DNA of 64,000 bases from Parapedobacter soli (lineage in GTDB: Bacteria > Bacteroidota > Bacteroidia > Sphingobacteriales > Sphingobacteriaceae), in assembly GCF_025460835.1 (NCBI RefSeq), contig NZ_JAMXAY010000012.1:1-64000 (forward strand). Reading direction: 5' to 3'. The position numbers and the translations under genes are program-made. Below the pieces are notes generated by a model. That model was not told the origin of the DNA, made no database searches, and worked only from the letters and a program-made list of their open reading frames with translations. Below, piece after piece: positions 29,001 through 64,000 of the stretch. Positions within the stretch are counted from its first letter, which is position 1; the number at the start of each line of letters is the position of its first letter.

Positions 29001-29288
29001 AGCCACACAAATGCCCAGTACGTTTCGGATATCTATATCGAAGACGGCGATTACGTGAAGATACAGAACATCACCCTTGGATACGATATCAAGTCGCTGG
29101 TACCCAATATGCCACTCGGGCAAGCCCGGCTTTACGTTGCAGCGCAAAACCTGTATACATTTACCGGATACTCAGGCATGGACCCGGAAATCGGCTACGG
29201 TTACGACAGGGGTTGGGTATCGGGTATCGACCTTGGGTTCTACCCAAGTCCGCGGACCTTCCTCGTTGGGTTAAATGTTAAATTTTAA
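26064..29288 (+). CDS. SusC-like TonB-dependent transporter (pair 1)
   Basis: A 1074-residue outer-membrane transporter of the SusC family that imports oligosaccharides using TonB energy. A signal peptide (about 1-37) is followed by a carboxypeptidase-regulatory-like domain (VSGSVTDATGTPLAGVTV, 51-68), the linker LEELVVIGYGTQKKK near 133 that includes the TonB box, a plug domain with PLYVIDGV and a 22-strand barrel ending in VGLNVKF. No STN signalling domain is seen, so it is a transporter rather than an anti-sigma partner. The gene lies 33 bases after the epimerase and 11 before its SusD partner. Confidence 0.96.
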   Translation: MKSIFYKKTRDRLLQLATGCLVLALPVLGGTSRAYGNPITEVAPGNMVQHRVSGSVTDATGTPLAGVTVKEQSANTGTVTDNQGRYSLPVTAPNAILTFSYIGFITQEIVVGGQSIIDVTLAEDVNTLEELVVIGYGTQKKKLTTGATIQVKGEDLQKLSTSSVLGALQSQSPGVQITQSSGMPGQGFKVTIRGLGTIGSSSPLYVIDGVANGDINALNPSDIESIDVLKDAASAAIYGSRAANGVVLVTTKQGKAGKLTLSYDTYIGAQNAYKLPSLLTAKEYMQIQDERMFNEGLAPYDWATLIPNQYEQIMNGTWEGTNWLKTIHNDDALTQNHALNLIGGNEQSKFSLGYSFANQEGIFGKPVQPSSERHTVRFNSDHVIFKNNDFDIIKFGENITYTYNTTAGIGIGNIYWNDIHNMLVGNPLLPAYNSDGGYYDHASKVADGWALDGATANPLADMVYRRGQNRSKNHSLLANAYLEVQPIKNLKFRSNFGYRLSSYAYRQYTPAFQLSTTSQNAVDDISQSQGQGYNWILENTLAYSWDVKSNHNFDVVVGQAVERMGLGEDVGVTTSNSSFPGSWRNAWVINAQGYEGFIPTVSGEPWGDNVLASFFGRANYNYNETYMATLIMRADASSNFARGHRWGYFPSVAAGWVVTNEPFMESASSWANFFKLRASWGQNGNSAISPYQYLATISTDRKTGYYFGNNKNTLLNGAYPDVLPNPGISWETSEQLNIGFDARFINDKLGVVFDWYRKSTIDWLVQAPVLAIYGTNPPVINGGDIRNQGVELGLNWNDRKGDFSYGISINGAYNRNKVVRIDNGEGIIHGDANVISQGTTEMYRAQVGYPVGYFYGFKTEGIFQTAEQIADYRASSKGVLATAQPGDVIFADTNRDGAITDDDKVMIGNPHPDFTGGMNINFGYKGIDLSITATGAFGHQIAKSYRSFADSPLQNYTTEIFGRWHGEGTSNFLPRLTNGSHTNAQYVSDIYIEDGDYVKIQNITLGYDIKSLVPNMPLGQARLYVAAQNLYTFTGYSGMDPEIGYGYDRGWVSGIDLGFYPSPRTFLVGLNVKF

Positions 29289-29299
29289 ATTGCTGAACA

Positions 29300-30994
29300 A
29301 TGAAAAAGCTACTCTATATAATAGCCCTCGCCATCACGTTCTCAGGCTGTGAAAGCTTCCTGGATACCGAGAGCTACACGAAGAAAAATACGGGCAACTT
29401 CCCCATTACCGTGGCTGATGCCGAGCAGATGGTCACCGGTATCTATTCCACACTGAGCGCGGCCATATCCAATGTCCATAACACCCATTTCTATGTATCA
29501 GAGCTGGCTTCGGACGATCGGTTCGGGGGCGGTGGCGAAAACGACAGGGACATGCACGGGCTCGACCACCTCATGAATACCCAGCCCAACCGGTTCGAGT
29601 CGTACTGGACCGCCCGCTACCAAGGGATATACCGTGCCAATACGGCCATCGAAAACATCGATAAGGTAACCGGATGGCAGAACGATAACCAGCGGAGTCA
29701 ATTGCTGGGCGAAGCCCACTTCCTGAGGGCGCTGTTCTACTTTGAGTTATCCCAGATGTTCGGTGAAGTGCCTTTGGTTATCAAAACCGAAGCTGAGAAT
29801 CTGCCAAAATCTCCCGCTGACGCAACGTATGGCCAGATTGCTTACGACCTGCAGCAAGCCATTGCCCTGATGCCCGGTACGCCTTATACCAGTGTGGCTT
29901 CGGGACATGCCACCAAATGGGCGGCACAAGCACTGGCGGCACGTGTGTTCCTATTTTATACCGGTTATTACGGTAAATCGAGTTTGCCCGTAGCCAACGA
30001 CGGCGGCGAGATCAGCAAAGCACAGGTCATCGGTTGGCTGGAAGATTGCATAAGCAACAGTGGCCACGGACTGGTTTCGGATTTCCGCAACCTGTGGCCG
30101 TACACCAATGAATATACGGCGGCCGACTATGAGTATGTAACCGACAATGAATTGCAATGGGAAGGCGATGGCAACAAAGAGACCGTTTTTGCCGTCAAAT
30201 TCGGCACACTGGTAGACTGGGGCGACCAATACGTACTGGGTTACTCCAACCAGTACAACCTTCACTTCGGGCTTCGCTCAAACAACGGGCAAGCCGGAAC
30301 ATTTCCCTTTGGCCAGGGCTGGGGAGCCGGACCGGTAAACACAGCATTATGGCAAGCTTGGGCGCAGGCGGAACCAACGGATATCCGTAGGACGGGCTCA
30401 ATCATCAATGCCGAAACCGACCTGGACGATTACATTTATGGTGCCGATGCCCAAATGGAAGAAACAGGATTCTGGCAAAAGAAGTATGTCCCGATCACGG
30501 CCTATGATGATGGCAACCTGATCCCATCGTACGCCATTTTAAAGGATGCAGCACCCTCCGATTACCAGTTGGCACATACCCAAGACCTGGTACTGATCCG
30601 TTTTGCCGACGTGCTGCTCATGCACTCGGAGCTGTCAGAAGATGCCACGAATTTGAATAAGGTAAGGGCGCGCGTAAATCTCCCGGCAGTGGCATACTCA
30701 CTCGACGCATTGAAGCGGGAGCGCCGCTGGGAGCTGGCTTTCGAGGGCTTACGGTACTTTGACCTGATGCGTTGGCACGATGCGGCGGACGCACTGGCAG
30801 CCCAAGAAGGCGTAGCCATAAAAAACAAAGGCGTCGACACCCAGATGAAGGGCTTCGGCGGTGGCTACCGTGCACGTTTCGAAGCAACCGGAGGTTTCTG
30901 GCCCATCCCGCAGTCGCAAGTGCTGCTCTCTGAGGGTGTATTGGAACAAAATGCAGGCTGGGGTACAGCAGCAGACGAATTCCCCGGATGGTAA
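29300..30994 (+). CDS. SusD-like glycan-binding lipoprotein (pair 1)
   Basis: A 564-residue surface lipoprotein that caps its SusC transporter and binds glycan. The lipobox ends at C17 (AITFSGC). The N-terminal domain has YWTARYQGIYRANTAIENIDK and FLRALFYFELSQMFGEVPL, typical TPR-like SusD/RagB features. The C-terminal RERRWELAFEGLRYFDLMRWH is the strongest SusD signature. It ends in a FWPIPQSQVLLSEGVLEQNAGW tail. It follows the SusC gene at 11 bases. Ligand is inferred to be mannan oligosaccharide from the operon. Confidence 0.95.
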   Translation: MKKLLYIIALAITFSGCESFLDTESYTKKNTGNFPITVADAEQMVTGIYSTLSAAISNVHNTHFYVSELASDDRFGGGGENDRDMHGLDHLMNTQPNRFESYWTARYQGIYRANTAIENIDKVTGWQNDNQRSQLLGEAHFLRALFYFELSQMFGEVPLVIKTEAENLPKSPADATYGQIAYDLQQAIALMPGTPYTSVASGHATKWAAQALAARVFLFYTGYYGKSSLPVANDGGEISKAQVIGWLEDCISNSGHGLVSDFRNLWPYTNEYTAADYEYVTDNELQWEGDGNKETVFAVKFGTLVDWGDQYVLGYSNQYNLHFGLRSNNGQAGTFPFGQGWGAGPVNTALWQAWAQAEPTDIRRTGSIINAETDLDDYIYGADAQMEETGFWQKKYVPITAYDDGNLIPSYAILKDAAPSDYQLAHTQDLVLIRFADVLLMHSELSEDATNLNKVRARVNLPAVAYSLDALKRERRWELAFEGLRYFDLMRWHDAADALAAQEGVAIKNKGVDTQMKGFGGGYRARFEATGGFWPIPQSQVLLSEGVLEQNAGWGTAADEFPGW

Positions 30995-32015: not shown

Positions 32016-35000
32016 ATGATTCCACATTTATCAAAAAATGCCGGACTGCTCTTCGTAATGCTAGCTATCGCACAGCTCGTGGTTGGCCAAAACAGCAACC
32101 AACTACAGGTGAGCGGTACCGTAAGGGAGGTGTCCGGCACCACGCTGTCGGGCGTATCGGTAACCGTGAAGGGCAGCACCCAGTCTGCCGCTACCGGAAA
32201 TGACGGCAGCTACCGAATAGCCGTGCCCTCCCAAGAGGCGGTGCTGGTTTTTTCGTACCTCGGCATGCAAACGTTGGAAGAGCCTGTAGGCAACCGCCGG
32301 GTTATCGACGTACGCCTGCAACCTGCCACGTCTTCATTGAATGAGGTGGTTGTCATCGGGTACGGCACCAACAAGCGCGGTAACCTCACCAGCGCACAGA
32401 CAACCATCAGCGCTGACGACATCGGCCGCACGGTGAACACCACCATCGAGCAGGCCATACAAGGGCGTGCCGCGGGCGTGTATATCACCCAGAACTCGGG
32501 GCAGCCCGGTGGCGGCATATCGGTCAATATCCGCGGCATAAACTCCATAAATGGCACCAACGAACCCCTTTATGTGATCGATGGCGTACAGGTGGCAGGC
32601 CAGGCCGTATCGTTCGGCGAGCAGAGCTCCTCTAACCCACTGGCTGGATTGAATCCGGCCGACATCGAAGACATCCAGGTGCTCCAAGGCCCCTCGGCAA
32701 CCGCCATATACGGGTCGCGAGCCACAAACGGGGTACTGCTCATTACCACCAAGCGCGGAAAAGCGGGGCAGACAAAAATAGACTACAGCGGCCAATACAC
32801 CGTTCAAACCGGCCCGCCGCGCATGGATGTGATGAACCTACGCCAATACGCCCAAATGGTAAACGAATACCATGCAATCGCCGGTGGCGAAACACCGTTG
32901 GAGTTCCTCGACCCCACACTGCTGGGCGAAGGTACCGACTGGCAGGATGCCCTATTCCGGAACGCACCGATGCACAAGCACCAGCTGAGCCTGAGCGGTG
33001 GTGGCGACCGCCTTACCTACTACCTATCGGGCGAATACATGGACCAGGAAGGCATCGCCGCAGGCTCGGGGTTCGAGCGGTACGGCAGCCGCCTCAATGT
33101 GGATGCGAAACCGCGGACCTGGCTCTCCCTGGGTGCCAATATCAGCTTCAGCCAAACGGATGAAAGCCTTACCACCAGCCAGGAAAACATCATTTCAAAT
33201 GCGCTGCGGCTCACCCCCCAAATACCCGTGAAGAATCTCGACGGCTCCTGGGGCGGTGGCGACGACTATAACGGCGCAAACCAATTTGCACCGGTAAACC
33301 CGCTGGCAATCGCCGCCCTAACCACCAACGACCTGACGCGAAGGCAATTCCTGGGCGGCATAAACCTGGGTATCGATATCATCGAGGGCCTGCAATTCAG
33401 GACATCCTTCAACACGAATTTCGGCTTTTCAAACTCAAGCTACTACATCCCCGTCTACAAAATCGGATGGGCAGAAAACGCCACCGCTTCGTTGCAGAGC
33501 CGCGGCAACCTCAATACGTACTGGAATTGGAACCAGCTACTCGAATACAACAAACAGTTTGGCAAACACCACCTCAACGTGATGGCCACCCACGAGGCGC
33601 AGGCGTCAACCTGGAAGAACCTCGGTGGCCGCCGCACCGGGTTCCTTACGGACGATATCCTCGACTTGGAAGCGGGCGACCCACTCACGGCCTCGGCCAC
33701 AGGCGGATCCGGTGAATGGGGCATGGAGTCATACCTCGGCCGCGTTAACTACAACTACGACGACCGTTATATCGTATCGGGAACCATACGTACCGACGGA
33801 TCGGTCAACTTCGGCAATGAAAATAAATGGGGGGTATTCCCATCGCTATCCGCAGCGTGGCGCCTGTCGCAGGAAGACTTTTTCAACGTGCCCGCCATCA
33901 GTGAACTGAAACTCCGGTTCGAAACCGGTACCACCGGCAACCAAGGGGGCAGCGGCTACATCTATTCACCCATGGCACCGGGAGCTACGCCCACCGGCAC
34001 CGGGTTCTTGCCCAGCCGCTACAACAACCCCGGACTGCAGTGGGAAGAAACGCTGACCAACAATTTCGGCATCAACATCGGTCTGTTGAAAAACCGCATT
34101 GAGCTGGAGGCCGATTACTACATCAAAAAGACGGACAACCTCTTAATGGAAAACCCGCTGCCGTGGTATATGGGTACCAACGGCGTAGGTGCCGTGGCCG
34201 CCCCGCAGGTAAATATCGGTGCACTCGAGAACAAAGGCTGGGGCATTACGCTGAATACGGTCAACATCCAGAACGAAGCATTCACCTGGGCCACCAACTT
34301 CAACATATCCGGGTTCAAAACCACCATCAAAAAGTTCTATTCCGACGCTGCCCAGATCAACCGTACATCGTGGTGGCTGGATGATTGGACACAGCAATCG
34401 GTGGTGGGCTTGGCCCCGTGGCAGTTCCTCGGCTACATCGAAGAAGGCATATTCCAGTCGGTCGACGAAATCGAGAAGAGCGCTGTACCGGCCGACAACA
34501 ACGGCGATCGGCTGCCCACCAATGAAAGTAATATCTGGGTGGGCGACGTGAAGTTCAAAGACATCAGCGGCCCCGACGGCACGCCCGACGGCATCATAGA
34601 CGTGTACGACCAGACGTTCATCGGCAACCCTTATCCGAAATTTTTTGCCGGCTTAACCAACTCTTTCTCCTACAAAGGATTTGACCTCAGCATTTTGCTC
34701 ACCGGTGCATTTGGCAATGACATCTACAACTACATCGCGAGGGTAAGCTCCAATCCGAACAACATCAACTTGAGCCGGAACCTGATGGTTAACGCGATGG
34801 ACTATGCGCGCCCTATCGTTGGGGACGGCGGTACGGTGAGGCTGGAAAATCCCGAAACGAACGTGGCGCGTATTTCGTTGGGGCCCAACGGCAACTACGC
34901 CCGCCATACCGACAAATGGGTGGAAGATGGTTCATACATCCGCATCAAGAACGTTGCCCTGGGCTATAACCTGCCAGCAACGATATTGTCAAAGCTGAAA

Positions 35001-35192
35001 GTCATACAGCAGGTGCGGGTAGCATTCAGTGCCCAGAATGTGGCCACGTTTACCAAATATAGCGGGTTCGACCCCGAAGTGGGGGCCTACGTAGGCCGCG
35101 ATGCCAGCAACCAGAACCAGGCTATTGGCCTCGATTTCGGCCGTTACCCGCTAACGCCCATCTACACATTTAGTTTAGGAATGAGTTTCTAA
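32016..35192 (+). CDS. SusC-like TonB-dependent transporter (pair 2)
   Basis: A 1058-residue SusC-family outer-membrane transporter. Signal peptide to about residue 25 (AQLVVGQ), then a carboxypeptidase-regulatory-like domain (VSGTVREVSGTTLSGVSV), the SLNEVVVIGYGTNKRG linker near residue 107, and a plug with EPLYVIDGVQVAG and SATAIYGSRATNGV. The barrel ends in IYTFSLGMSF with the terminal phenylalanine. Sequence around the plug differs clearly from the first SusC in this locus, so this is not a recent duplicate. It is followed at 11 bases by its SusD. A different chain length or branched mannan is a plausible substrate. Confidence 0.96.
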   Translation: MIPHLSKNAGLLFVMLAIAQLVVGQNSNQLQVSGTVREVSGTTLSGVSVTVKGSTQSAATGNDGSYRIAVPSQEAVLVFSYLGMQTLEEPVGNRRVIDVRLQPATSSLNEVVVIGYGTNKRGNLTSAQTTISADDIGRTVNTTIEQAIQGRAAGVYITQNSGQPGGGISVNIRGINSINGTNEPLYVIDGVQVAGQAVSFGEQSSSNPLAGLNPADIEDIQVLQGPSATAIYGSRATNGVLLITTKRGKAGQTKIDYSGQYTVQTGPPRMDVMNLRQYAQMVNEYHAIAGGETPLEFLDPTLLGEGTDWQDALFRNAPMHKHQLSLSGGGDRLTYYLSGEYMDQEGIAAGSGFERYGSRLNVDAKPRTWLSLGANISFSQTDESLTTSQENIISNALRLTPQIPVKNLDGSWGGGDDYNGANQFAPVNPLAIAALTTNDLTRRQFLGGINLGIDIIEGLQFRTSFNTNFGFSNSSYYIPVYKIGWAENATASLQSRGNLNTYWNWNQLLEYNKQFGKHHLNVMATHEAQASTWKNLGGRRTGFLTDDILDLEAGDPLTASATGGSGEWGMESYLGRVNYNYDDRYIVSGTIRTDGSVNFGNENKWGVFPSLSAAWRLSQEDFFNVPAISELKLRFETGTTGNQGGSGYIYSPMAPGATPTGTGFLPSRYNNPGLQWEETLTNNFGINIGLLKNRIELEADYYIKKTDNLLMENPLPWYMGTNGVGAVAAPQVNIGALENKGWGITLNTVNIQNEAFTWATNFNISGFKTTIKKFYSDAAQINRTSWWLDDWTQQSVVGLAPWQFLGYIEEGIFQSVDEIEKSAVPADNNGDRLPTNESNIWVGDVKFKDISGPDGTPDGIIDVYDQTFIGNPYPKFFAGLTNSFSYKGFDLSILLTGAFGNDIYNYIARVSSNPNNINLSRNLMVNAMDYARPIVGDGGTVRLENPETNVARISLGPNGNYARHTDKWVEDGSYIRIKNVALGYNLPATILSKLKVIQQVRVAFSAQNVATFTKYSGFDPEVGAYVGRDASNQNQAIGLDFGRYPLTPIYTFSLGMSF

Positions 35193-35203
35193 AGATCATA
35201 ACC

Positions 35204-36880
35204 ATGACACATACAAAGCGCATTTATATAGGCACGTTACTGATAGGCACTTTAATCGCATCTGCGGGCTGTAGCAACAGCTTCCTGGAAAAGCCACCCA
35301 CGGACGCCATCGTTGATGCGAATTTTTACAAGACCGACGACCAAGTGCTTGCCGCTACCGCACTGCTGTATAGCAAGGTGTGGTTTGATTACAACGATAA
35401 AGCCTCATACAACCTGGGCGACTTCCGGGCAGGGACTGCTTTTTCCGCGTGGAACGATCGCGGCAACGTGTTGTTCAACACCACGGGCGACACCCCCGAA
35501 AACGGCACCGCTTGGCGGTCGTTTTTCATCGTGGTGGGCCAATCTAACCTTGCCATCCAAAACATCATGAAGTACGCCGGTGATGGCGTTTCGGCTGATG
35601 TGAAACGGATAGCCCTCGCCGAAGCCCGGTTTATGCGGGCCCTGGCCTATCGGTTCCTCGTGATGAACTGGGGTGCAGTACCCATCATCGAGAACAACAT
35701 CACCCTGCTGGCCGACACCACCGCACAGCGCAACACGCCGGAAAGCGTATGGCGATTTATCACCAACGAAATGCGGGCCGCAGCTGAGGACCTTCCGGAA
35801 ACACCCCTGCGCCCGGGGAGGCTCACCAAATGGTCGGCAGAAGGTATGCTCGCCCGTTTCTACCTCACCCGTGCGGGGGTCGCTTCGGGTGGCTCCGGTA
35901 CGCGCGACCAAGTATTCCTCGACAGCGCCAAATATTATGCCGAGCGGGTGATCAACCTCAGCGGTGCCTCCCTGCTCAACAGCTATGCCGATCTATTCCT
36001 ATATCCGTACGACAACAATGCGGAATCGCTGTTTTCCCTGCAATGGACCTATTCGCCGGGTGCGTGGGGCACCCAGAATTCGACCCCTGCTTACCTGGCT
36101 TACAGTGGCGACATCGCCAATGGCGACGGCTGGGGTGGCGACAAAGGCGCCACGTGGTGGATGATATCGATGTATGACGGCATCAAGGCAACCGAAGAAG
36201 GCATGGAAGGCCGCACGCTGGACCAACGGCTCAAAGCCACCTTCATGCTGCCCGGCAGCCACTATGCGGAAATCACGCAGTCCATTCCCGGCGGAAAACA
36301 GGAGCTGATATTCCCGTTCACCGGCACAGACAACAACTTCCTGTCCGTCAAGAAGTACGTCACCGGCAAAGCTGAAGATGTAGGCGGGCAGGCCGCATCG
36401 CAAAACTATGGACACGACACCTACATGCAGCGCCTCGCCGAAATTTACCTGATTTATGCCGAGGCTGTATTGGGCAACCAGGCATCCACCACAGACCCCA
36501 CGGCGGTTGAATACTTCAACAAGGTACGCATGCGGTCGGGCCTGCCGGCATTCGAAGACCCGCTTACGTTGGACGTCATCCTGAAAGAGCGCTTCGTCGA
36601 GTTCGCCATGGAAGGCATGGCGTGGTATGACCTCGTAAGCTTGCACTATTACAATCCGCAAAAGGCATATGACATCCTGAATACGCAAGACCGCGGACTG
36701 TTTTTCACGGTGCCCAACCAGATGCCCAGTCCGACATCGTGGACGTTTACCAAGACGACCTGGTTTACCGAGCGCAACATCACGGCCAATAGTGGCAACT
36801 TCCTGCTGCCCATCCCTACAGCCGAATTGAGCCAGGCGCCCAACCTCCGCAAACCGGCAGTCGATTATTTCAACAACTAG
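35204..36880 (+). CDS. SusD-like glycan-binding lipoprotein (pair 2)
   Basis: A 558-residue SusD/RagB lipoprotein with a lipobox at C23 (LIASAGC). It shows EARFMRALAYRFLVMNWGAVPIIE near residue 140, typical of the TPR region, and a C-terminal LKERFVEFAMEGMAWYDLVSLHYYNP, the SusD signature. It ends LLPIPTAELSQAPNLRKPAVDY. It partners the transporter 11 bases upstream and precedes two IPT-domain glycan-binding lipoproteins. It should sit on the cell surface as the lid of the SusC barrel. Confidence 0.94.
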   Translation: MTHTKRIYIGTLLIGTLIASAGCSNSFLEKPPTDAIVDANFYKTDDQVLAATALLYSKVWFDYNDKASYNLGDFRAGTAFSAWNDRGNVLFNTTGDTPENGTAWRSFFIVVGQSNLAIQNIMKYAGDGVSADVKRIALAEARFMRALAYRFLVMNWGAVPIIENNITLLADTTAQRNTPESVWRFITNEMRAAAEDLPETPLRPGRLTKWSAEGMLARFYLTRAGVASGGSGTRDQVFLDSAKYYAERVINLSGASLLNSYADLFLYPYDNNAESLFSLQWTYSPGAWGTQNSTPAYLAYSGDIANGDGWGGDKGATWWMISMYDGIKATEEGMEGRTLDQRLKATFMLPGSHYAEITQSIPGGKQELIFPFTGTDNNFLSVKKYVTGKAEDVGGQAASQNYGHDTYMQRLAEIYLIYAEAVLGNQASTTDPTAVEYFNKVRMRSGLPAFEDPLTLDVILKERFVEFAMEGMAWYDLVSLHYYNPQKAYDILNTQDRGLFFTVPNQMPSPTSWTFTKTTWFTERNITANSGNFLLPIPTAELSQAPNLRKPAVDYFNN

Positions 36881-55980: not shown

Positions 55981-56391
55981 TTAACAATATTCGTCAAAAG
56001 CAGCTACTAAGTTATCAGCAATCATCTGTGCAGGGCGTCCTTCGATCTGATGGCGCTCAATCATATGCACCAGCTTGCCGTCTTTAAACAACGCCATAGC
56101 GGGCGACGAGGGCGGATAAGGTAACATATAAGAACGCGCCCGATCTACGGCGTCTTTTTCCATCCCGGCAAACACCGTTACCACCTTATCAGGGTGTTTC
56201 TCATTTTTTATAGCCGTTACGGCAGCGGGGCGTGCATTAGAAGCCGCACAACCACATACCGAGTTAACCACTACGAATACAGTACCTTCCTGTTTGATGG
56301 CTGTATCTACCTCTTCGGGTGTTTTCAATTCTTCAAAACCTACACGGGTAAGTTCATCGCGCATCGGCGCTACCAAGTATTCTGGATACAT
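55981..56391 (-). CDS. Bacilliredoxin (BrxA/BrxB, YphP/YqiW family)
   Basis: A 136-residue thioredoxin-fold protein that removes bacillithiol or similar low-molecular thiols from protein cysteines. The redox motif is C46-G-C48 in NSVCGCAASNARPAA, the CGC form typical of the family. YPPSSPAMALFKDGKLVHMIERHQIEG near residue 93 is the conserved cis-proline region. A well-formed promoter lies just upstream. Bacillithiol occurs in some Bacteroidota, so the role is plausible here. Confidence 0.9.
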   Translation of the reverse strand: MYPEYLVAPMRDELTRVGFEELKTPEEVDTAIKQEGTVFVVVNSVCGCAASNARPAAVTAIKNEKHPDKVVTVFAGMEKDAVDRARSYMLPYPPSSPAMALFKDGKLVHMIERHQIEGRPAQMIADNLVAAFDEYC

Positions 56392-56460: not shown

Positions 56461-56629
56461 CCGCTGTTTCACTGAAATGTCAGAATTCATGTATCACCGG
56501 CAATATGCAAATGGATAACATGTATTTTTTCAAACCCGATCCCGATTTTGTTCTTATTTTCTTACATCCTAACAAACCGAGAAGCGATCGTGAATGCTGC
56601 AATGATGTGCGCCATTGGCAGCGAGAAGC

Positions 56630-57553
56630 TCAGTTGCCCAAAGCAAACGTTGCAATAACGGGATAATGGTCCGAAAATGCGTCAGCCACCCCGGTGTTGA
56701 CAATCGTTGCATCCGTACATTGCGTTGCGAGCGACGGACTGACGAGGATAAAATCCAGCCGCTCGCGGATGGGGATAAGTGATTCCCGTGTACGGACGGG
56801 GTTGAAATGCAACGGGGACGGAAAACTAAACCGATCGCTGCCATCCACGAACCGCTCGCACACATCGATTAAAGGAAAAGCCAAGAAAGTGGCCATTACG
56901 CTGTAATCAAGCTGGCCGTAGCTGAGCGTTTGACGGGTTTTTGGCTTCCGTTCTGCGTCTAACTGATTATACCACTTCATAAGCTCTGGATACTGCTTAT
57001 CCAAGTGCGCGTCAAACGGCGAATGTGCATTAAAATCGCCTAAGACCACGTACTTTTCGTTAGACAACGATAGGTTTTTGCGCATGTACCGGGTAATCCT
57101 GGCAGATTCGCGAAGCCGCGTAGCGAAATCAGACGGGCATAAGTGGACCACGAAAAAGTCCGTACCATGGGTAGTCACATGCAGCATGCCGTGCCAAAGC
57201 CCTTCAATCATTTTCTTCTTGACGGTAATCGGCTTGTTGGAGGTCAGTCCAACAGGGAAGCCGTCCGCCTTCAATATAACCGCATAGTCATGCCCCCATG
57301 TGGCGGCGAGCTCCTGAAGTGTCTTGTCGGTAAAGCCGCAAAGCTCCTGCAGGGCGACCACATCGGGCTGCTGCGAAGCAACCCACGCCCCTAGTGCTTG
57401 GGCACGTGCCTTATCCCTACCGTAATCAAAGCCGTTATAAACGTTGTAGCTCATTACTTTTAACGGCTGAGCCGACCGTGCCCCGGGTTGTGCTCCTGCC
57501 GCATGCGCAACCAGCATTAAGAACATGAGCCCCCTTATAATTCGATGTTTCAT
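56630..57553 (-). CDS. Secreted endonuclease/exonuclease/phosphatase-fold hydrolase
   Basis: A 307-residue exported protein of the EEP superfamily (Mg-dependent phosphodiesterase or phosphatase fold). ATG 57553 gives a signal peptide ending AHAAGAQ; the frame also opens at ATG 57619, which overlaps the preceding stop as ATGA. Motifs are VMSYNVYNG, VALQELCGF (metal glutamate), LGDFNAHSP (catalytic Asp and Asn) and SDHYPVIATF (catalytic His). It is the last gene of the five-gene exported cluster. The fold is clear; its substrate (nucleic acid, phospholipid or sugar phosphate) is not. Confidence 0.85.
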   Translation of the reverse strand: MKHRIIRGLMFLMLVAHAAGAQPGARSAQPLKVMSYNVYNGFDYGRDKARAQALGAWVASQQPDVVALQELCGFTDKTLQELAATWGHDYAVILKADGFPVGLTSNKPITVKKKMIEGLWHGMLHVTTHGTDFFVVHLCPSDFATRLRESARITRYMRKNLSLSNEKYVVLGDFNAHSPFDAHLDKQYPELMKWYNQLDAERKPKTRQTLSYGQLDYSVMATFLAFPLIDVCERFVDGSDRFSFPSPLHFNPVRTRESLIPIRERLDFILVSPSLATQCTDATIVNTGVADAFSDHYPVIATFALGN

Positions 57554-57615
57554 AATTCTGACGTACATAATAAAACCCACCTGTCTTCCATTTGCCGAAT
57601 GCCCGTATCTGAGCA

Positions 57616-58869
57616 TCATTGCGTATCGTCGGCTTTATCAAGACCGTCGTTTCGCCAGACATGCAAATACGGATACTTGTCCCATCCAATACTGATGATG
57701 TCCAACGTGCCGTTTCCATCAAGATCGGCCACACGTGCGCCGAGGTGCCCCTCTTTGCCCGTATCCACCAGGTTTTCGGTGAAATTGCCCGTGCCGTCGT
57801 TTCTCCAAATTTGAAGTTTTAGGGCTTTCCCCTTATGCTCAGCCACGATGATATCCATATGGCCGTCGTTGTCCATGTCCGCCACATCCATATTATTCAT
57901 CGAGTACTGGGTCACGACGGTGTGCCGCTCCCAACCTCCATTGGTGAGGTCAACAGACTGTTCAAACCAAAAGAGGTTCGCATCGGGCTCCCGTCCGGGA
58001 TACCGTTCTTCCGATACCACGACGTCGGCTTTGCCGTCGCCGTTCATGTCTGCCACAGCAATCCGGTCTGCGTCAAACAAGGTTTGTCCGATCGGGAAAG
58101 ATTCCCAGTTCCCCTGGCCATTTCCCGGATTCTTCCACCAAAAAATTTCCATACCACTCCCCTCGTCTTCTCCCTGCCGCCGCCCGGCCGCGATATCCAG
58201 CAGCCCATCGCCGTCGATATCGCCGACACCGAACCCTTCGTCTGATGCGTCGGGCGCGGCGTGGGTCATCGGCCAATACCCTTCGTGCCGGCTGATATCA
58301 TCCGGGATCTCAAAATAATAAATACCCTCGCCGGTCGCGAGCATAACCTCTTTGCTCCCCCCGGGTATGATCTGGGCATTGGCATATCCCTGTCCATTCA
58401 CATGGCCGGTGGCGGGCACTTCACCGATCTGTACACCTTGCCAGGCACTTCCCTGTTCATCCAGGGCCTTGAACCAATATACGGCCGGAAGGGCTGTTGC
58501 AATGATGCCGCCATATTGATGCCCCTTCACATCGACAAACAACATCCCGTCCACATTCATCCCCAGGTCTATCCGATGCCAGTGTTCCGTCATATCGCCG
58601 CCCGGATTTTGGTAAAAATAGCGGCCGGCGACGATATCCTTGAAACCATCGCCCGTTACGTCCGCCATATCAAGCCCGAAATAGCGCAACCATTCGGGCT
58701 GTGCCCAGTCGCCCCACTTCGCACGTTGATCATCTACCTGGATGTAATGCCATTGATTAAGTGAAACAATAGGTTGTGAATCACGATTGCCGGTCGCGGT
58801 ACCGCACCGATATGCGCTGGCCGTCACGACCAACAGCACCATCCAAGTTGTAATGTTTAATTTTCTCAT
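57616..58869 (-). CDS. Exported VCBS/FG-GAP beta-propeller protein
   Basis: A 417-residue exported protein. The N-terminus is hydrophobic and ends SAYRC; a cysteine at 22 hints at a lipoprotein but arginine at -1 is atypical. At least five calcium-binding-like loops D-x-x-x-D/N-G recur (DVTGDGFKD, DIDGDGLLD, DMNGDGKAD, DMDNDGHMD, DLDGNGTLD), each at the end of a propeller blade. The WKNPGNGQGNWESFPIG-type strands between them are typical of the FG-GAP repeat family. It lies 3 bases after its paralogue and overlaps the EEP gene by 4. Role unknown: glycan binding or an uncharacterised lyase are possible. Confidence 0.8.
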   Translation of the reverse strand: MRKLNITTWMVLLVVTASAYRCGTATGNRDSQPIVSLNQWHYIQVDDQRAKWGDWAQPEWLRYFGLDMADVTGDGFKDIVAGRYFYQNPGGDMTEHWHRIDLGMNVDGMLFVDVKGHQYGGIIATALPAVYWFKALDEQGSAWQGVQIGEVPATGHVNGQGYANAQIIPGGSKEVMLATGEGIYYFEIPDDISRHEGYWPMTHAAPDASDEGFGVGDIDGDGLLDIAAGRRQGEDEGSGMEIFWWKNPGNGQGNWESFPIGQTLFDADRIAVADMNGDGKADVVVSEERYPGREPDANLFWFEQSVDLTNGGWERHTVVTQYSMNNMDVADMDNDGHMDIIVAEHKGKALKLQIWRNDGTGNFTENLVDTGKEGHLGARVADLDGNGTLDIISIGWDKYPYLHVWRNDGLDKADDTQ

Positions 58870-58872
58870 GAA

Positions 58873-60171
58873 TTAATTACTTGTTTTTATCCCTTTGTTT
58901 ATCCAAATATCCACCCGGGGTGCCTTCCAGTTATAAGGTTTCCCCAAAATATCGGGCAAACCATCCCCATTAAGGTCGACCATAACGCCCTCATGCAAGC
59001 CAAAACCCGAATGGATACGCATTTCCGCGAAGTTACCCTGTCCATCGCCAAACAATACCCGGGTCTTTGGGTCTGGGTTTTTACCCAATTGCATTTCCGC
59101 GAGGAAGACATCCAGGTGCCCGTCGCCGTTCAAATCGAGGACGGTAATGGAGTGGCCATCCATCACGTTTTCAATCAATATTTTACTCTTCCAGACGCCA
59201 CGCTGCCATTCGTACAGCACCAACGGCGCCGTGCCATCCCCAGCAATCAGCAACACTTCCGGCCGGCCACCTTCAATAAAATCACCTACGGCAGTCCGCG
59301 TAAACGCATATCCGGCGTCAATGATGTTTGGGCGGAACGTGGTCCCCTCGATGTGTTTGAACCACCGGCCGCCGCCCACGATATCCGGCTGACCATCACC
59401 ATCGATATCGATCGTGGCCAAGCCCTCGTGTTCGTTTGTTTTGCGCCAGCCCGGATAGGAGCCTCGCTGTTCCATTTCGCTGTCAGCACTCCATTGGTAA
59501 ATGGGTACGCAGTTCCAGGGTTGAGTTTGCTTGGGGTCGTCAGGAATCTTCGCTAAGAATAAGGTCGTGCCCCCCTGGTTCCAAAAAACCAATTCGGTTT
59601 TCCCGTCGCCGTCAACATCCTCAAAAAGCTGGTCGTGATGTTTCGGCGCCCCACCGTCTTTAATCAAGCGGCGTACCCAAGGTTTGTCCGGGTCATAATT
59701 CGGATACGGATTTTCCCACCACCAGAGCTGGTTGCTCTGGCTGTCGCCCCCGAACACGATGTCCAGATCGCCGTCGCCATCGATATCATAAAACGCCGAT
59801 CCCGCCTCGATGGGCAAACGCTCTTGGTCGACAACGTAACGGTCCCATCCGGTCGCCGTTCTCCGGTACCACACCACCGCCGGCGCCTCCGAGCGCTCGG
59901 CAATGATAAAATCATTGATGCCGTCCTGGTCGACGTCCATCACCAACGTTGCGGTCTGTTGGTTACCCGCATTCGGCGTGGGAAAATCACCATGCGCAGT
60001 AGAAACGTGCTCCCAAGTATATTCAAGATTCGATTTCGCTAACTGGGTTTTTGACGTATCCCGTACATGGATTCCTGTTAAATCGCCTTGAGAAGGTGCG
60101 GCATGGGTTAGCGTAGGGGTGATGCATGCAACATATAGCCCTAGGGCCGCTTTTGTGATGTTTGATAACAT
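58873..60171 (-). CDS. Exported VCBS/FG-GAP beta-propeller protein
   Basis: A 432-residue protein with a Sec signal ending near THA. Six D-x-x-x-D-G loops (DVDQDGIND, DIDGDGDLD, DVDGDGKTE, DIDGDGQPD, DLNGDGHLD, DLNGDGLPD) indicate a seven-bladed calcium-stabilised propeller. Tryptophan-rich strands such as NQLWWWENPYPNYDP and VVWYRRTATGWDRYV recur. It shares its plan with the next gene 3 bases downstream, so they arose by duplication. Proteins of this shape occur in polysaccharide loci of Bacteroidota and Planctomycetes; some propellers of the type are rhamnogalacturonan lyases, but I see no specific catalytic motif. Confidence 0.8.
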   Translation of the reverse strand: MLSNITKAALGLYVACITPTLTHAAPSQGDLTGIHVRDTSKTQLAKSNLEYTWEHVSTAHGDFPTPNAGNQQTATLVMDVDQDGINDFIIAERSEAPAVVWYRRTATGWDRYVVDQERLPIEAGSAFYDIDGDGDLDIVFGGDSQSNQLWWWENPYPNYDPDKPWVRRLIKDGGAPKHHDQLFEDVDGDGKTELVFWNQGGTTLFLAKIPDDPKQTQPWNCVPIYQWSADSEMEQRGSYPGWRKTNEHEGLATIDIDGDGQPDIVGGGRWFKHIEGTTFRPNIIDAGYAFTRTAVGDFIEGGRPEVLLIAGDGTAPLVLYEWQRGVWKSKILIENVMDGHSITVLDLNGDGHLDVFLAEMQLGKNPDPKTRVLFGDGQGNFAEMRIHSGFGLHEGVMVDLNGDGLPDILGKPYNWKAPRVDIWINKGIKTSN

Positions 60172-60211
60172 AATGGTACTATTAAAACGTCGTATAATCG
60201 GGTTGTTCGGT

Positions 60212-61492
60212 TTATTTCGTGCTTTTTATTACTAATTCAGGTCCGGGCAACAAGACCTCAATGCCATGATGCTCCGTATCCGAAAGCAACTCAATCGTAT
60301 TCTCCCCCGCCCGAATCCATGCGGGGTCCAATTCGAAAATACGATATATCACATCATGTGCACTTTTACCGCTGGCCAACTGCAGCGGAACGCCATTGAA
60401 TTTAAAATGATCTTTTACCCCCCCTTCGCCGCCGTCCCATATCAGGATGTGTAATTCGGCTTTATCAATCTTACCCGGAACCACATCCGCCACGATGGTG
60501 CACGTATTCAGTTTATTCGCCCGCGACCAAAAGGGAACGGGCAGGTCGTGCGACCGAAACCTATCGATGCGGGTATCGGTGCGCACTGGTATTTTCAGAC
60601 CGGTCGTCTCTGGGGTGAGGTAACTGATGCGATCCCGGTCTTTGAAGTGGACCTCAGCCTTCACCTTAACGCCATGCTGCGGTTTGAGCATTGCCGTGTT
60701 CCACACCACGTTGAACGGTGCCGTGTCGCTGCGGCCCAGGTGATGTTGCGGCACCTTGCGTTTAGTATATCCATGCCAGTCCGTCTCCAATCCATTTCCA
60801 TTCTCGTCAAAGCCTTCGTAATAGCCATAATACTCCACGTAGTCGATTTCTGCGTCATGCATTTCCGACAGGGCGAGCTGCAATTCAATAGCATCGGCCG
60901 ATTGGACCGTGGCGACCACACTCGCTTCAAAGCCCTGCAGTCCGGCCGCAACCAAATCGGTATGCTCCCCTTTCAACGTGAGCACCAAGCACGCGTTGTC
61001 CATCAGGAAATGGCCCCAAAAGGAAAACCCCGCCTGACACGAAAACTGAAATACATTGTATCCGTTGACCAGATCCGTTATCTCCACCGGAATCAGTGGA
61101 TAATGATACGTGCAGTGTCCTTTCGCGGTGCCCACCTCCGGAATCGCGTAGGTACTTCGTCCATTAACGGTCATGGCTTTAGCGGCAGTTCCGGGATGCC
61201 CTCCCCACAGCTCCAAATATAGGGCGGCACTCTCGATTTGGTCCAGCTCCTCTTCTGCCAATACTTGAATCATTCCATTGCCACGCGCTTCGACTCGTTT
61301 ACCATACAGGGGATGCAACATGATATCCGGGGAGCTTACCCGGATGGATTGGTTGAAGTTCGGATTGCCATGTTCGAGGCCCTGTTGATACCAGTACCGT
61401 TTGATGAACTGGCCCGGAGTAGTCTCTTGGGCATGAAGTGTTGTGCTCAGCAGTGCAATAAGTGCAATCGCAGCAAAAGATATTCTTTTCAT
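60212..61492 (-). CDS. Exported protein of unknown family, jelly-roll-like
   Basis: A 426-residue protein with a signal peptide ending TTLHAQ. I do not recognise it. The sequence is almost all beta-strand and loop, with AALYLELWGGHPGTAAKAMTVNG (about 68-90) and AELHILIWDGGEGGVKDHFKFNGVPL (about 345-370) looking like two related galactose-binding-type sandwiches. The end, AWIRAGENTIELLSD-like, is also typical of such modules. A possible active-site-like stretch is GYYEGFDENGNGLETDWHGYTKRK (about 222-245). It sits between another unknown protein and the propellers in the same operon. Confidence 0.6.
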   Translation of the reverse strand: MKRISFAAIALIALLSTTLHAQETTPGQFIKRYWYQQGLEHGNPNFNQSIRVSSPDIMLHPLYGKRVEARGNGMIQVLAEEELDQIESAALYLELWGGHPGTAAKAMTVNGRSTYAIPEVGTAKGHCTYHYPLIPVEITDLVNGYNVFQFSCQAGFSFWGHFLMDNACLVLTLKGEHTDLVAAGLQGFEASVVATVQSADAIELQLALSEMHDAEIDYVEYYGYYEGFDENGNGLETDWHGYTKRKVPQHHLGRSDTAPFNVVWNTAMLKPQHGVKVKAEVHFKDRDRISYLTPETTGLKIPVRTDTRIDRFRSHDLPVPFWSRANKLNTCTIVADVVPGKIDKAELHILIWDGGEGGVKDHFKFNGVPLQLASGKSAHDVIYRIFELDPAWIRAGENTIELLSDTEHHGIEVLLPGPELVIKSTK

Positions 61493-61528
61493 GGTTGTGT
61501 CGAAATAATCGTTAATTATCGTGTTTGT

Positions 61529-62404
61529 TTAATGCAAATTCGATTTATGCCTGTGCATTTGCTCGATGCAAGCTGCCGCCCACTCATGGTCTTCTTGGGT
61601 TATAATTTTACGTTCAAGAAAGCCAAACCTGAACGTGACATTTTCCGCAGTCATCAGCGACTGGGCACCCGTACCCCTACCAAAACCAAAAACAACCATC
61701 CCGTCTTCCGCATCTTTACCTGCACCGCTATTCCCCATGTAAGAAAAAATGTCGTTCAAGTGATCGTGTTCTTGCTGGGCCACAAAAAAGACCCGGTTTG
61801 TTTCTTGGTCGCCGAAGTAAGCCCACTGCCAAGTATCCGCAATGCTTTCACCATGGTTCAATGAAGGCACTTCATATCGCGGTCCGCCAAGATCAGTTCC
61901 CCAATATTTGAGGTAAGGGTTAAAACTACCGGCAACCGGCCCCTCGTACAAAAACCAATAGCTATGGTTTGGATCCGTCCGTTCCATGGTGAGTTCGACA
62001 TGGTCATCATGAAACCTCCATAACCAAACCCACTTTCCGCTTTTGCTTTTCGTACGAATGGCGTTGCTATCGATCTGCTCGCTTATACATTGGTCAAACC
62101 CGGGGTGCCCTGCGCCGCCGTCATCAGAGCGGAAAACAAAATTCGGGAGACCGCGAAAACCTCCCGAGGCACCATCAGGCACCTTGGCGTGAGGGCTACC
62201 ATTGTAATGCACCCAATCTATCCCATCGCAATCGATTATGCTCGATAATCCACCCCCGGCTTTATCCAAGTAATAAATCGCCGACTCGGTCGATACCACA
62301 AAATGCGACCTATCATTATAGATTTCTTCTTCGATGGTAAGCGGATTGCCCGACAACAAATTTATAACCATGCAAAACGCCAAGCTACCGAGGGATGTTT
62401 CCAT
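61529..62404 (-). CDS. Exported protein of unknown family
   Basis: A 291-residue protein starting at ATG 62404 (the frame opens with a TTG at 62413). Residues 5-20 are hydrophobic, consistent with an export signal. It is tryptophan- and histidine-rich with repeated beta-strands: GGFRGLPNFVFRSDDGGAGHPGFDQ (about 80-104), WVWLWRFHDDHVELTMERTD (about 120-140) and DTWQWAYFGDQETNRVFFVAQQEHDHLND. Several conserved-looking Asp, Glu, His and Arg residues would suit an enzyme acting on acidic sugars, but no family is evident. It is the first gene of the exported cluster, behind a -7 box at 62498-62505. Confidence 0.6.
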   Translation of the reverse strand: METSLGSLAFCMVINLLSGNPLTIEEEIYNDRSHFVVSTESAIYYLDKAGGGLSSIIDCDGIDWVHYNGSPHAKVPDGASGGFRGLPNFVFRSDDGGAGHPGFDQCISEQIDSNAIRTKSKSGKWVWLWRFHDDHVELTMERTDPNHSYWFLYEGPVAGSFNPYLKYWGTDLGGPRYEVPSLNHGESIADTWQWAYFGDQETNRVFFVAQQEHDHLNDIFSYMGNSGAGKDAEDGMVVFGFGRGTGAQSLMTAENVTFRFGFLERKIITQEDHEWAAACIEQMHRHKSNLH

Positions 62405-62497
62405 AAATGCCAATAATTTAATCCAATTAATTTAAAAGCAATACATTTTGCCAGCTGATGCACTATTAATCAAGGGCATCAAGCTTATTACTTTAGA

Positions 62498-62505
62498 CAA
62501 AGATA
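62498..62505 (-). promoter_or_regulatory. -7 promoter box of the exported-protein operon
   Basis: The minus strand reads TATCTTTG. It predicts a leader of about 90 bases to ATG 62404. No TTTG lies at the normal upstream distance, consistent with control by the divergent AraC regulator. Confidence 0.45.
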
Positions 62506-62618
62506 GGATACCTGAAGACGGCCGACTAACATTATTTTGGTATTAATATGAATTATATTGAATCGATTTCCTATATTGGTGCTTTTTATTAGTTATTATT
62601 GTTCAAACTAATCGACTT

Positions 62619-63515
62619 ATGAACCCTATTTTAGAAAAGGTCACTGTCAGCTCCAACAGCTCCTTTGCACTTAAAGAAGAAATTCTTCCACACATCAAGA
62701 TTGGATGGCATTTCCATCCCGAATACGAGCTGACGCTTTTTACAGAAAGTGTTGGGAAGCGATTTGTCGGCGACCACACCGATAGTTTCGGGCCGGGCGA
62801 TTTATTACTGATCGGACCTCACTTGCCACATTACATGCGTAACGATGAAATCTATTACCGAAACGACTCTGATTTACGGATCAGGGCTATAGTGGTTCAT
62901 TTTACCGAGGACTTTATCGGCGGTCAATTCTTTGATATTCCCGAGATGGGTATGGTAAAAAAATTATTGAACAATTCGCTTCGGGGAATCCATATTTATG
63001 GAGAAACCCAACAGGTGGTAGCGAAGAAAATGGAAGAACTATTGACCGTAGAAGGTTATGAGCGTCTTATCTGCCTGCTGGACATTCTTCAGCTGATCGC
63101 CCACTCCAGTGAGCAACGTATGTTATCGTCAATAGGGTATGAAAATTCATTCTCACTTAACGATGCGGATCGGATCAACAGTGTATTCGAATACGTGTTG
63201 CAGCACTTTACTGAAGACATAAGCTTAGCTGAAGTGGCGGCCCACGTACATATGAACGCCTCTGCTTTTTGTAAATTTTTTAAAAGTCGGACCGGCAAGA
63301 CATTCACCTATATTCTCAATGAAATAAGGATTGGGCATGCTTGCAGGCTATTTATTGAACAAGACATCTCCGTATCAGAGGTCTGTTATGCATGCGGTTA
63401 TAATAGTCTATCGTATTTTAACCGAAAGTTCAAGCTGATTACGAAATATTCGCCGATGGACTATCGCCGACGTTTTTATCACGAACCAAATGCCGCAGCA
63501 CTCACCCTTGGCTAG
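62619..63515 (+). CDS. AraC-family regulator
   Basis: A 298-residue regulator. The N-terminal cupin-like domain has IGWHFHPEYELTLFTESVGKRFVGDHTD (about 30-58), the same plan as the mannan-locus regulator at 19557. The C-terminal double helix-turn-helix has ISLAEVAAHVHMNASAFCKFFKSRTG and ISVSEVCYACGYNSLSYFNRKFK. It is divergent from the exported cluster and converges on the DUF3823 gene, so it probably controls one or both by sensing a sugar. Its last ten codons form one arm of a long perfect inverted repeat. Confidence 0.9.
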   Translation: MNPILEKVTVSSNSSFALKEEILPHIKIGWHFHPEYELTLFTESVGKRFVGDHTDSFGPGDLLLIGPHLPHYMRNDEIYYRNDSDLRIRAIVVHFTEDFIGGQFFDIPEMGMVKKLLNNSLRGIHIYGETQQVVAKKMEELLTVEGYERLICLLDILQLIAHSSEQRMLSSIGYENSFSLNDADRINSVFEYVLQHFTEDISLAEVAAHVHMNASAFCKFFKSRTGKTFTYILNEIRIGHACRLFIEQDISVSEVCYACGYNSLSYFNRKFKLITKYSPMDYRRRFYHEPNAAALTLG

Positions 63516-63540
63516 GTGCCTGCTGCGGCATTTGGTTTTG
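63484..63540 (+). terminator. Terminator-like hairpin overlapping the end of the AraC gene
   Basis: AACCAAATGCCGCAGCA (63484-63500) and its exact complement at 63521-63537 form a 17-base perfect stem around a 20-base loop, followed by TTG. The left arm codes for the protein's C-terminal E-P-N-A-A-A and the stop (63513-63515) falls in the loop. It lies between converging genes and can stop transcription from both sides. Confidence 0.75.
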
Positions 63541-63562
63541 TGGCCAGGAAACCGTCGATGGC

Positions 63563-64000
63563 TTACAACGCCAACCTTACCGCTTTCGCATAGTTCAGCT
63601 TGGCCTCTGGAGCATCATACAGCGCCCCTACCCTAAAAAAGTAGGGATGCCCGGGCGCTAATGTGGGGTGCGATGGCAAGTCGATTTCAAGTGAGAAAGT
63701 CGCATCCGGATCCGTTGGCTCATTCAGAACCTTTTCAACAGCTACTTTCCGTAAGGGCTCTCCGACAGCAGCTTCGGGATGTGCGTATAACCCAATTTTC
63801 CTTACATTATTAGGCCCCGTTTGTTCTAAATTGAACGTAGCGATCACCTTATCTCCCGCTTTCGCGATGGATACATTCTTCACACGGATGTAAGGCTGTA
63901 CCTGAAAATCAATTTGCGTATCCCCTTTCACCTGGATTTCCTTTTTGTCGATTGGAAAGAAATTCCCTCTAACGGGCCGCACCGTATACGTACCTGCAAA
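63563..64000 (-). CDS. DUF3823-type lipoprotein, C-terminal part
   Basis: A protein truncated at its N-terminus by the window edge; 145 residues are visible and the frame is open to 64000 (FAGTYTVRPVRGNFFPIDKKE). The GTYTVRPVRGNFFPID segment followed by IQVKGDTQIDFQVQPYIRVKNVSI is characteristic of DUF3823 proteins, which are lipoproteins next to SusC/SusD in Bacteroidota loci. The C-terminal half is a beta-sandwich ending in LNYAKAVRLAL. It suggests that a SusC/SusD pair lies just beyond the right edge. Confidence 0.75.
   Translation of the reverse strand, partial: FAGTYTVRPVRGNFFPIDKKEIQVKGDTQIDFQVQPYIRVKNVSIAKAGDKVIATFNLEQTGPNNVRKIGLYAHPEAAVGEPLRKVAVEKVLNEPTDPDATFSLEIDLPSHPTLAPGHPYFFRVGALYDAPEAKLNYAKAVRLAL

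Follow-up and report, generated by a model that had tools for sequence, protein, structure and literature searches.

What does an operon do that encodes five seemingly exported proteins, two of them of no recognised family, beside an AraC-family regulator and with no glycosidase in view? Such an operon lies on the minus strand between positions 62404 and 56630 of the DNA stretch analysed here (the window), which comprises the first 64,000 nucleotides, forward strand, of contig NZ_JAMXAY010000012.1 of Parapedobacter soli (RefSeq assembly GCF_025460835.1). The initial annotation of the window took its plan for that of a carbohydrate locus and suggested that the unrecognised proteins could be new lyases or hydrolases acting on an acidic or phosphorylated glycan. 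The operon turns out to lie within a block of about 24 kb, together with a SusC/SusD transporter and nine metabolic genes. Its two unnamed families, here called U291 and U426, recur across unrelated phyla, in many cases fused to one another or lying next to the same sugar-breakdown enzymes, and are therefore probably part of undescribed machinery for taking apart a glycan.

Layout of the operon

The coordinates of the five genes, the gaps of 36, 40 and 3 bases between them and their single overlap were all reproduced. The features of this part of the window are as follows.

61529..62404, minus strand: U291, first gene of the operon, 291 aa, modelled as a galactose-mutarotase-like beta-supersandwich, unnamed family
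60212..61492, minus strand: U426, secreted protein of 426 aa, modelled as jelly-roll (26-176), FnIII-like domain (188-304) and jelly-roll (306-426), unnamed family
58873..60171, minus strand: FG432, secreted FG-GAP/VCBS beta-propeller with a predicted ring of the invariant residues H179/E249/H340/H393
57616..58869, minus strand: FG417, second FG-GAP/VCBS propeller, possible lipoprotein
56630..57619 (probable start 57550), minus strand: EEP-fold secreted hydrolase, PF03372, accessory gene
62619..63515, plus strand: AraC-family regulator, HTH_18 (E 1.9e-20) and cupin-type AraC_binding (E 1.2e-4, above its cut-off)
63563..64000 (full gene to contig position 64,258), minus strand: DUF3823/DUF3823_C lipoprotein in the SusE position, directly downstream of SusD
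56489..64000: in-window part of the island of about 24 kb, the remainder of which reaches about contig position 80,308

The initial annotation considered all five proteins to be exported. Four of them indeed carry clear export signals, but U291 has only a weak, uncharged hydrophobic stretch at its N-terminus. The AraC gene is divergent from the operon, as described, but stands tail-to-tail with the DUF3823 gene.

A single insertion

In all eight congeners examined, the adenosylhomocysteinase gene (SAHH, contig 80,370-81,686) directly adjoins a YphP-type gene (window 55981-56391) at a distance of 153-484 bp, whereas in P. soli the two are 24 kb apart. The operon, SusC/SusD and the oxidation genes thus sit between genes that are otherwise adjacent and form one island (about contig position 56,489-80,308), a single insertion carried by only one of the nine species of the genus that were examined. 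At the left edge, homology to the intergenic DNA of the congeners stops near 56,488; at the right edge it resumes weakly near 80,308 (74% over 35 bp). The GC content of the island (51.0%) is the same as that of its surroundings (51.5 and 50.1%), so composition gives no evidence of transfer and the analysis relied on synteny. None of the island genes was recognised as an integrase. On our reading, this is a glycan-utilization island acquired by horizontal transfer, and the operon would encode its extracytoplasmic components.

Transporter and metabolic genes

The contig extends 37.7 kb past the window, and the genes beyond position 64000, whose inspection the initial annotation had proposed, include SusC, SusD and nine metabolic genes. 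In the order of transcription, the minus strand encodes a GMC oxidoreductase, a GFO/IDH/MocA dehydrogenase (GFO), a gluconate-2-dehydrogenase subunit 3 (G2DH3), an AP_endonuc_2 TIM-barrel protein of the sugar-isomerase type, an IlvD/Edd (dihydroxy-acid) dehydratase, the two halves of a split transketolase as separate genes (TK-N and TK-C), a Zn-alcohol dehydrogenase (ADH), an SDR protein, SusC, SusD and the DUF3823 lipoprotein; these are followed by AraC on the plus strand and by the five-gene operon. SusC (TIGR04056, 794.6 bits against a cut-off of 368) and SusD (SusD_RagB, E 1.4e-33) form an adjacent pair at 64,264-69,332. A transporter had been reported as absent because the window edge cut off this pair. 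With SusC, SusD, the DUF3823 protein and the metabolic genes next door, the operon belongs to a polysaccharide utilization locus (PUL), to which the AraC-family gene at 62619-63515 supplies a linked regulator. A recognised carbohydrate-active enzyme, the other usual component, was not found: Pfam and NCBIfam scans of the island proteins revealed no glycoside hydrolase (GH), polysaccharide lyase (PL), carbohydrate esterase or sulfatase, so that the reported absence of glycosidases and sulfatases holds for the whole island; the fold matches of U291 described below are no more than suggestive in this respect. The carbohydrate assignment itself stands, supported by the adjoining SusC/SusD and by the way the unnamed families track genes of glycan metabolism across phyla.

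Among the metabolic proteins, GFO carries a Tat-like RRTFLK motif and has its best match in the glycoside 3-dehydrogenase family BT_2158_fam (476 bits, E 1.2e-142), below the family cut-off of 750 bits. The GMC and Gluconate_2-dh3 families were assigned by domain scan. The TIM-barrel protein (PF01261, E 1.2e-37) has intact metal-ligand motifs FELHPG, YDPSH, FHVKD and EWE. Pfam detected no PF06439 domain (DUF1080, keto-glycoside hydrolase) in the island proteins, and no uronate-specific gene was recognised there by Pfam or NCBIfam. Two known pathways were considered and rejected: the apiose/apulose transketolase pathway as a setting for the split transketolase, since the locus has no kinase, and an inositol pathway, since the IolE-like match of the TIM-barrel protein (60 bits against a cut-off of 290) and the IolM-like match of ADH all fall below their cut-offs.

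A further TIM-barrel gene of this genome (L060 7370-9643, G000:C88) is 54% identical to the one in the island and adjoins a GFO-family gene. This second gene is present in nine of nine genomes of the genus, and a TIM-barrel/GFO pair also occurs in genome G308. Another SusC/SusD-like set, accompanied by genes for a sigma factor and a FecR-like anti-sigma protein, was seen by inspection at L006 8152-16698 (contig C24:91,152-99,698), where the one visible enzyme is similar to calcineurin-type metallophosphoesterases; L006 4876-5838 and 17338-17895 hold tandem-repeat, low-complexity open reading frames with several frames open. The window itself contains two gene pairs that are SusC/SusD-like by size alone, at 26064-30994 (1074/564 aa) and 32016-36880 (1058/558 aa).

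The two unnamed families

As the initial annotation had it, U291 and U426 belong to no recognised family. Neither has a Pfam or NCBIfam family or a relative among PDB sequences, searched singly or as a profile, and no match to a housekeeping family was found in any of these collections. For U291, no Pfam family at all, Aldose_epim (galactose mutarotase) included, appeared at E <= 1. Its model (pLDDT 74) nevertheless has a mutarotase-type supersandwich, with VIA Z scores of 18.6 to mutarotase 3mwx, 17.2 to PL26 and 16.1 to PL4 domain I. Galactose mutarotase-like proteins are thus its closest fold, but there is no detectable sequence similarity, and the conserved motifs of U291 (RGxPN, HPG and YWxLYEG) differ from theirs. 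Fifteen residues are invariant over nine homologues: D58, D63, W64, R84, N88, H100, W125, Y149, W150, Y153, E154, W194, D199, R204 and R243.

U426 was modelled with higher confidence (pLDDT 91) as a jelly-roll, an FnIII domain and a second jelly-roll. Because the three domains probably move relative to one another, whole-chain Foldseek TM and rmsd values are poor, and VIA matches of single domains alone were used. These include a chondroitin-binding carbohydrate-binding module (CBM; 8wab, Z 10.3), the C-terminal sandwich of GH86 (Z about 10) and, for residues 30-171, the jelly-roll at the C-terminus of the PL4 rhamnogalacturonan lyase 2xhn (Z 8.7). On this model U426 looks like a binding or spacer protein. 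The suggestion that the operon encodes new lyases or hydrolases may hold for U291 and the propellers.

The propellers and the EEP-fold protein

The calcium-loop propellers of the initial annotation were recovered as FG-GAP_3 proteins (E 3.6e-26 for FG417 and 1e-29 for FG432), with five matching stretches in each. The DxDxDG loop pattern occurs six times in FG432 and six times in FG417, where one of the matches is not a calcium loop. The residues H179, E249, H340 and H393 of FG432 do not vary among eight homologues, and each lies exactly six residues before a calcium-loop aspartate. Given this constant spacing, the three histidines and the glutamate should occupy equivalent blade positions around the central channel, which suggests a metal site. 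FG417 has a cysteine at position 22 and may be a lipoprotein. It matches AUDH_beta_propeller (PF22301) below the threshold (E 0.0071, 16.6 bits against a cut-off of 27), as do three of five FG417 homologues at E <= 1; no such match was found in FG432. A profile search with FG417 also reached 4a7k (E 0.0012), with the lectin PVL as the best match.

The last protein of the operon was confirmed as an EEP-fold hydrolase. It matches Exo_endo_phos (PF03372, E 4.4e-17) and has all of the motifs NVYNG, QE, VVH, GDFN, LDF and SDH. It has no relative among PDB sequences at E 1e-3. A start at 57550 instead of 57619 would give it a normal signal peptide. None of the 28 loci related to U426 contains a counterpart of this gene, and neither does a second set of related loci that includes L080, L082 and L089. 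It is an accessory gene, not conserved elsewhere, and the acidic or phosphorylated substrate that had been proposed finds no support.

Distribution, fusions and neighbours in other phyla

Among 84,980 species genomes scanned, 28 loci with relatives of U426 came to light, distributed among Acidobacteriota, Verrucomicrobiota, Planctomycetota, Bacteroidota, Ignavibacteriota, Desulfobacteraceae, Myxococcota and one Woesearchaeote. Closer to P. soli the family is rare: none of 200 other sampled genomes of its taxonomic family, eight congeners included, encodes U426, and only two of 247 sampled Bacteroidota genomes do, exactly the two that have U291 and FG432. Each of the latter is present in 13 of the 22 genomes bearing U426. 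In Acidobacteriota, U291 accompanies U426 in six of six genomes and is found in none of 296 other sampled genomes (p about 1e-12 in a test blind to phylogeny). The tree of U426 has two deep clades, and the P. soli protein falls into a group (support 100/100) whose 11 other sequences come mostly from Acidobacteriota, Verrucomicrobiota and Planctomycetota. Its nearest relative is an acidobacterial sequence (51%), and the single member from Bacteroidales falls outside the group.

The four proteins are also joined in single chains, read as uninterrupted frames in draft genomes. FG417 is fused behind FG432 in six loci (L028, L032, L037, L059, L080 and L081), with U426 added in L028 and L037 and, in L037, also CBM4_9 and a dockerin; L021 encodes a U426-FG417 fusion. 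A planctomycete frame of 1380 aa (L027 3-4145) combines a beta-lactamase-like domain, U426, U291, cytochrome c and a glucose/sorbosone dehydrogenase (GSDH).

The neighbours include enzymes of the same kinds as in the island. In L080 (Bryobacteraceae), TK-N (72%), TK-C (69%), ADH (39%), a fused FG432-FG417 gene and U291 are contiguous. In L082, TK-N and TK-C (48-49%), SDR and ADH (53%) adjoin U291. L020 contains FG432 fused to a TIM-barrel, then U426, IlvD (49%), U291, ADH and AraC, and a TIM-barrel gene also adjoins U426 in L045. Sorbosone or glucose dehydrogenases are encoded in L024, L026 and L027; L026 additionally has a 3-keto-disaccharide hydrolase gene, the only case of PF06439 (DUF1080) beside a U426 gene. 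In L019, L021 and L029, sulfatase-like genes (by inspection) or GH95, GH78 or GH106 genes (by Pfam) lie nearby. U426, U291, FG432 and FG417 thus co-occur and fuse across phyla, and genes for split transketolase, ADH, SDR, IlvD and TIM-barrel proteins are recurrently found beside them.

Comparison with known systems

The island resembles a Bacteroidota PUL: SusC, SusD and a DUF3823 lipoprotein are encoded consecutively, and an AraC regulator, secreted proteins and catabolic genes belong to the same acquired block. It differs in the lack of any recognised GH, lyase or sulfatase; its secreted part is built from two propellers and members of two unnamed families, and nine genes of oxidoreductase, dehydratase and transketolase types are present instead.

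A second comparison is with oxidation-elimination of 3-keto-glycosides (BT2156-BT2160; LacABC with DUF1080; GlycDH/OGE; LgdA-C). We take LacA and LacC to belong to the GMC and gluconate-2-dehydrogenase-subunit-3 families. BT2158 is a periplasmic glycoside 3-dehydrogenase required for disaccharide use (PMC11300592), and lactose is oxidised in the periplasm by LacABC, a membrane-bound dehydrogenase, which acts together with DUF1080 proteins (PMC9007349). An operon for a flavin dehydrogenase, an oxidoreductase and two sugar isomerases is a known oxidation-elimination set (PMC10628242), and several glycosides are known to be oxidised first and then cleaved through beta-elimination by TIM-barrel enzymes that depend on a metal (PMC10628242; PMC7676230). 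In the island, the BT2158-like GFO, GMC with Gluconate_2-dh3 and the AP_endonuc_2 TIM-barrel are candidate counterparts, a gene set as in PMC10628242 and PMC7676230, but the island lacks DUF1080, its GFO falls under the equivalog cut-off, and it has in addition IlvD, the split transketolase, ADH, SDR, FG-GAP propellers, U291 and U426. With one of the defining genes missing and a second below its cut-off, we do not claim membership in this pathway.

Aldos-2-ulose dehydratase (AUDH), the mechanism of which involves zinc, has a VCBS/FG-GAP propeller that FG417 resembles weakly (PF22301; 4a7k). FG417 is below the Pfam cut-off, however, and has no cupin domains. Propellers of this type occur in AUDH and include lectins (PMC8023676). 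Finally, PL4 rhamnogalacturonan lyase combines a supersandwich, as in U291, with FnIII and jelly-roll domains, as in U426. Here these are encoded by two separate genes, the aligned parts are about 9-14% identical, and U291 has neither a Pfam match to PL4 nor a PDB sequence match.

A proposed pathway and its alternatives

We tentatively favour an oxidative, elimination-type glycan pathway in which the secreted proteins of the operon are the cleavage enzymes, although we would put it at somewhat short of even. To judge from their families, SusC, SusD and the DUF3823 protein would capture and import an oligosaccharide, and U426 may bind the glycan in the manner of a CBM-FnIII-CBM protein, as its model suggests. 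The periplasmic Tat-type GFO and the GMC/G2DH3 pair would oxidise sugar rings, by homology to BT2158, LacA/LacC and GlycDH. The linkages of the resulting keto-sugars might then be cut by elimination, with FG432, U291 and the TIM-barrel protein standing in for the DUF1080 keto-glycoside hydrolase; it is the lack of DUF1080 in the island that led us to propose the secreted proteins, FG432 first, for this role. In the cytoplasm, SDR, ADH, the IlvD-type dehydratase and the split transketolase could act on the sugar or sugar acid so released, with no evident kinase. A more specific version, which we regard as doubtful, would make FG432 and U291 two new extracytoplasmic carbohydrate-cleaving families, with FG432 a metal-dependent keto-glycoside eliminase substituting for DUF1080; these two, U426 and FG417 would constitute a glycan-degradation system shared horizontally among Acidobacteriota, Verrucomicrobiota, Planctomycetota, Ignavibacteriota and Bacteroidota.

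Several observations weigh against the oxidative pathway. GMC and G2DH3 accompany these proteins only in the P. soli island, GFO matches elsewhere are weak (25-29%), and the island GFO is itself under the BT_2158_fam cut-off (476 against 750). The export of U291 is uncertain, the metal ring of FG432 is predicted from sequence, the link of FG417 to AUDH is sub-threshold, and FG-GAP propellers also serve as lectins or scaffolds. Members of the second clade (Desulfobacteraceae, Myxococcota, Woesearchaeota and Ignavibacteria) adjoin polysaccharide-synthesis genes and often have Ig/FN3 domains, which suits adhesins too. In addition, the p values overstate the evidence because the genome samples ignore phylogeny.

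Part of this evidence bears on the somewhat unlikely alternative that the four conserved proteins are non-catalytic and form a surface complex for glycan binding or adhesion, made of lectin propellers, a CBM-like U426 and a mutarotase-like binder, while cleavage is left to enzymes encoded elsewhere in the genome. It accords with the lectins among FG-GAP/VCBS propellers (PVL being the best profile match of FG417; PMC8023676), with the model of U426 as a binding protein and with homologues that have CBM4_9, dockerin or Ig domains or lie beside polysaccharide-synthesis genes, such as the glycosyltransferase, methyltransferase or polysaccharide-export genes seen by inspection in the clade II loci L034, L038, L039 and L089. 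Yet the invariant His/Glu/Asp/Arg sets of U291 and of the channel positions of FG432 exceed what a binding platform usually needs, and the island has no other candidate exo-enzyme except the EEP protein. Direct cutting of a polysaccharide by U291 and U426 as a split PL4-like lyase or hydrolase (supersandwich catalytic domain plus FnIII and jelly-roll), with the propellers binding and the oxidoreductases handling the monosaccharide, likewise seems rather improbable. In its favour, U291 resembles PL26 (Z 17) and domain I of rhamnogalacturonan lyase (2xhn/1nkg, Z 15-16), its 15 invariant residues are polar or aromatic, residues 30-171 of U426 match the last jelly-roll of that lyase (Z 8.7), U426 has an FnIII-like middle, and the two proteins are fused in L027. 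The supersandwich, however, is common to mutarotases, GH38, GH174 and many others at equal Z, jelly-rolls are very common, the likeness is at the level of the fold, and the order in L027, U426 then U291, is unlike that of PL4. Least probable, and very unlikely in our estimation, is the original proposal, in which the encoded enzymes act on an acidic or phosphorylated glycan and the EEP protein removes phosphate. The EEP gene is in the operon with its motifs intact, and phosphoesterases lie near U426 in L019 and L029, but these belong to families unrelated to EEP, the related loci have no EEP homologue, and the island has no recognised uronate-specific gene.

Implications

Two unnamed families and two propeller families are now tied to a defined transporter and to oxidative sugar genes, and the association of the unnamed families with oxidative genes is repeated independently in other phyla. 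The oxidative, elimination-type reading turns a set of hypothetical proteins into a testable pathway, which could extend the short list of enzyme families that break glycosidic bonds by non-hydrolytic means.

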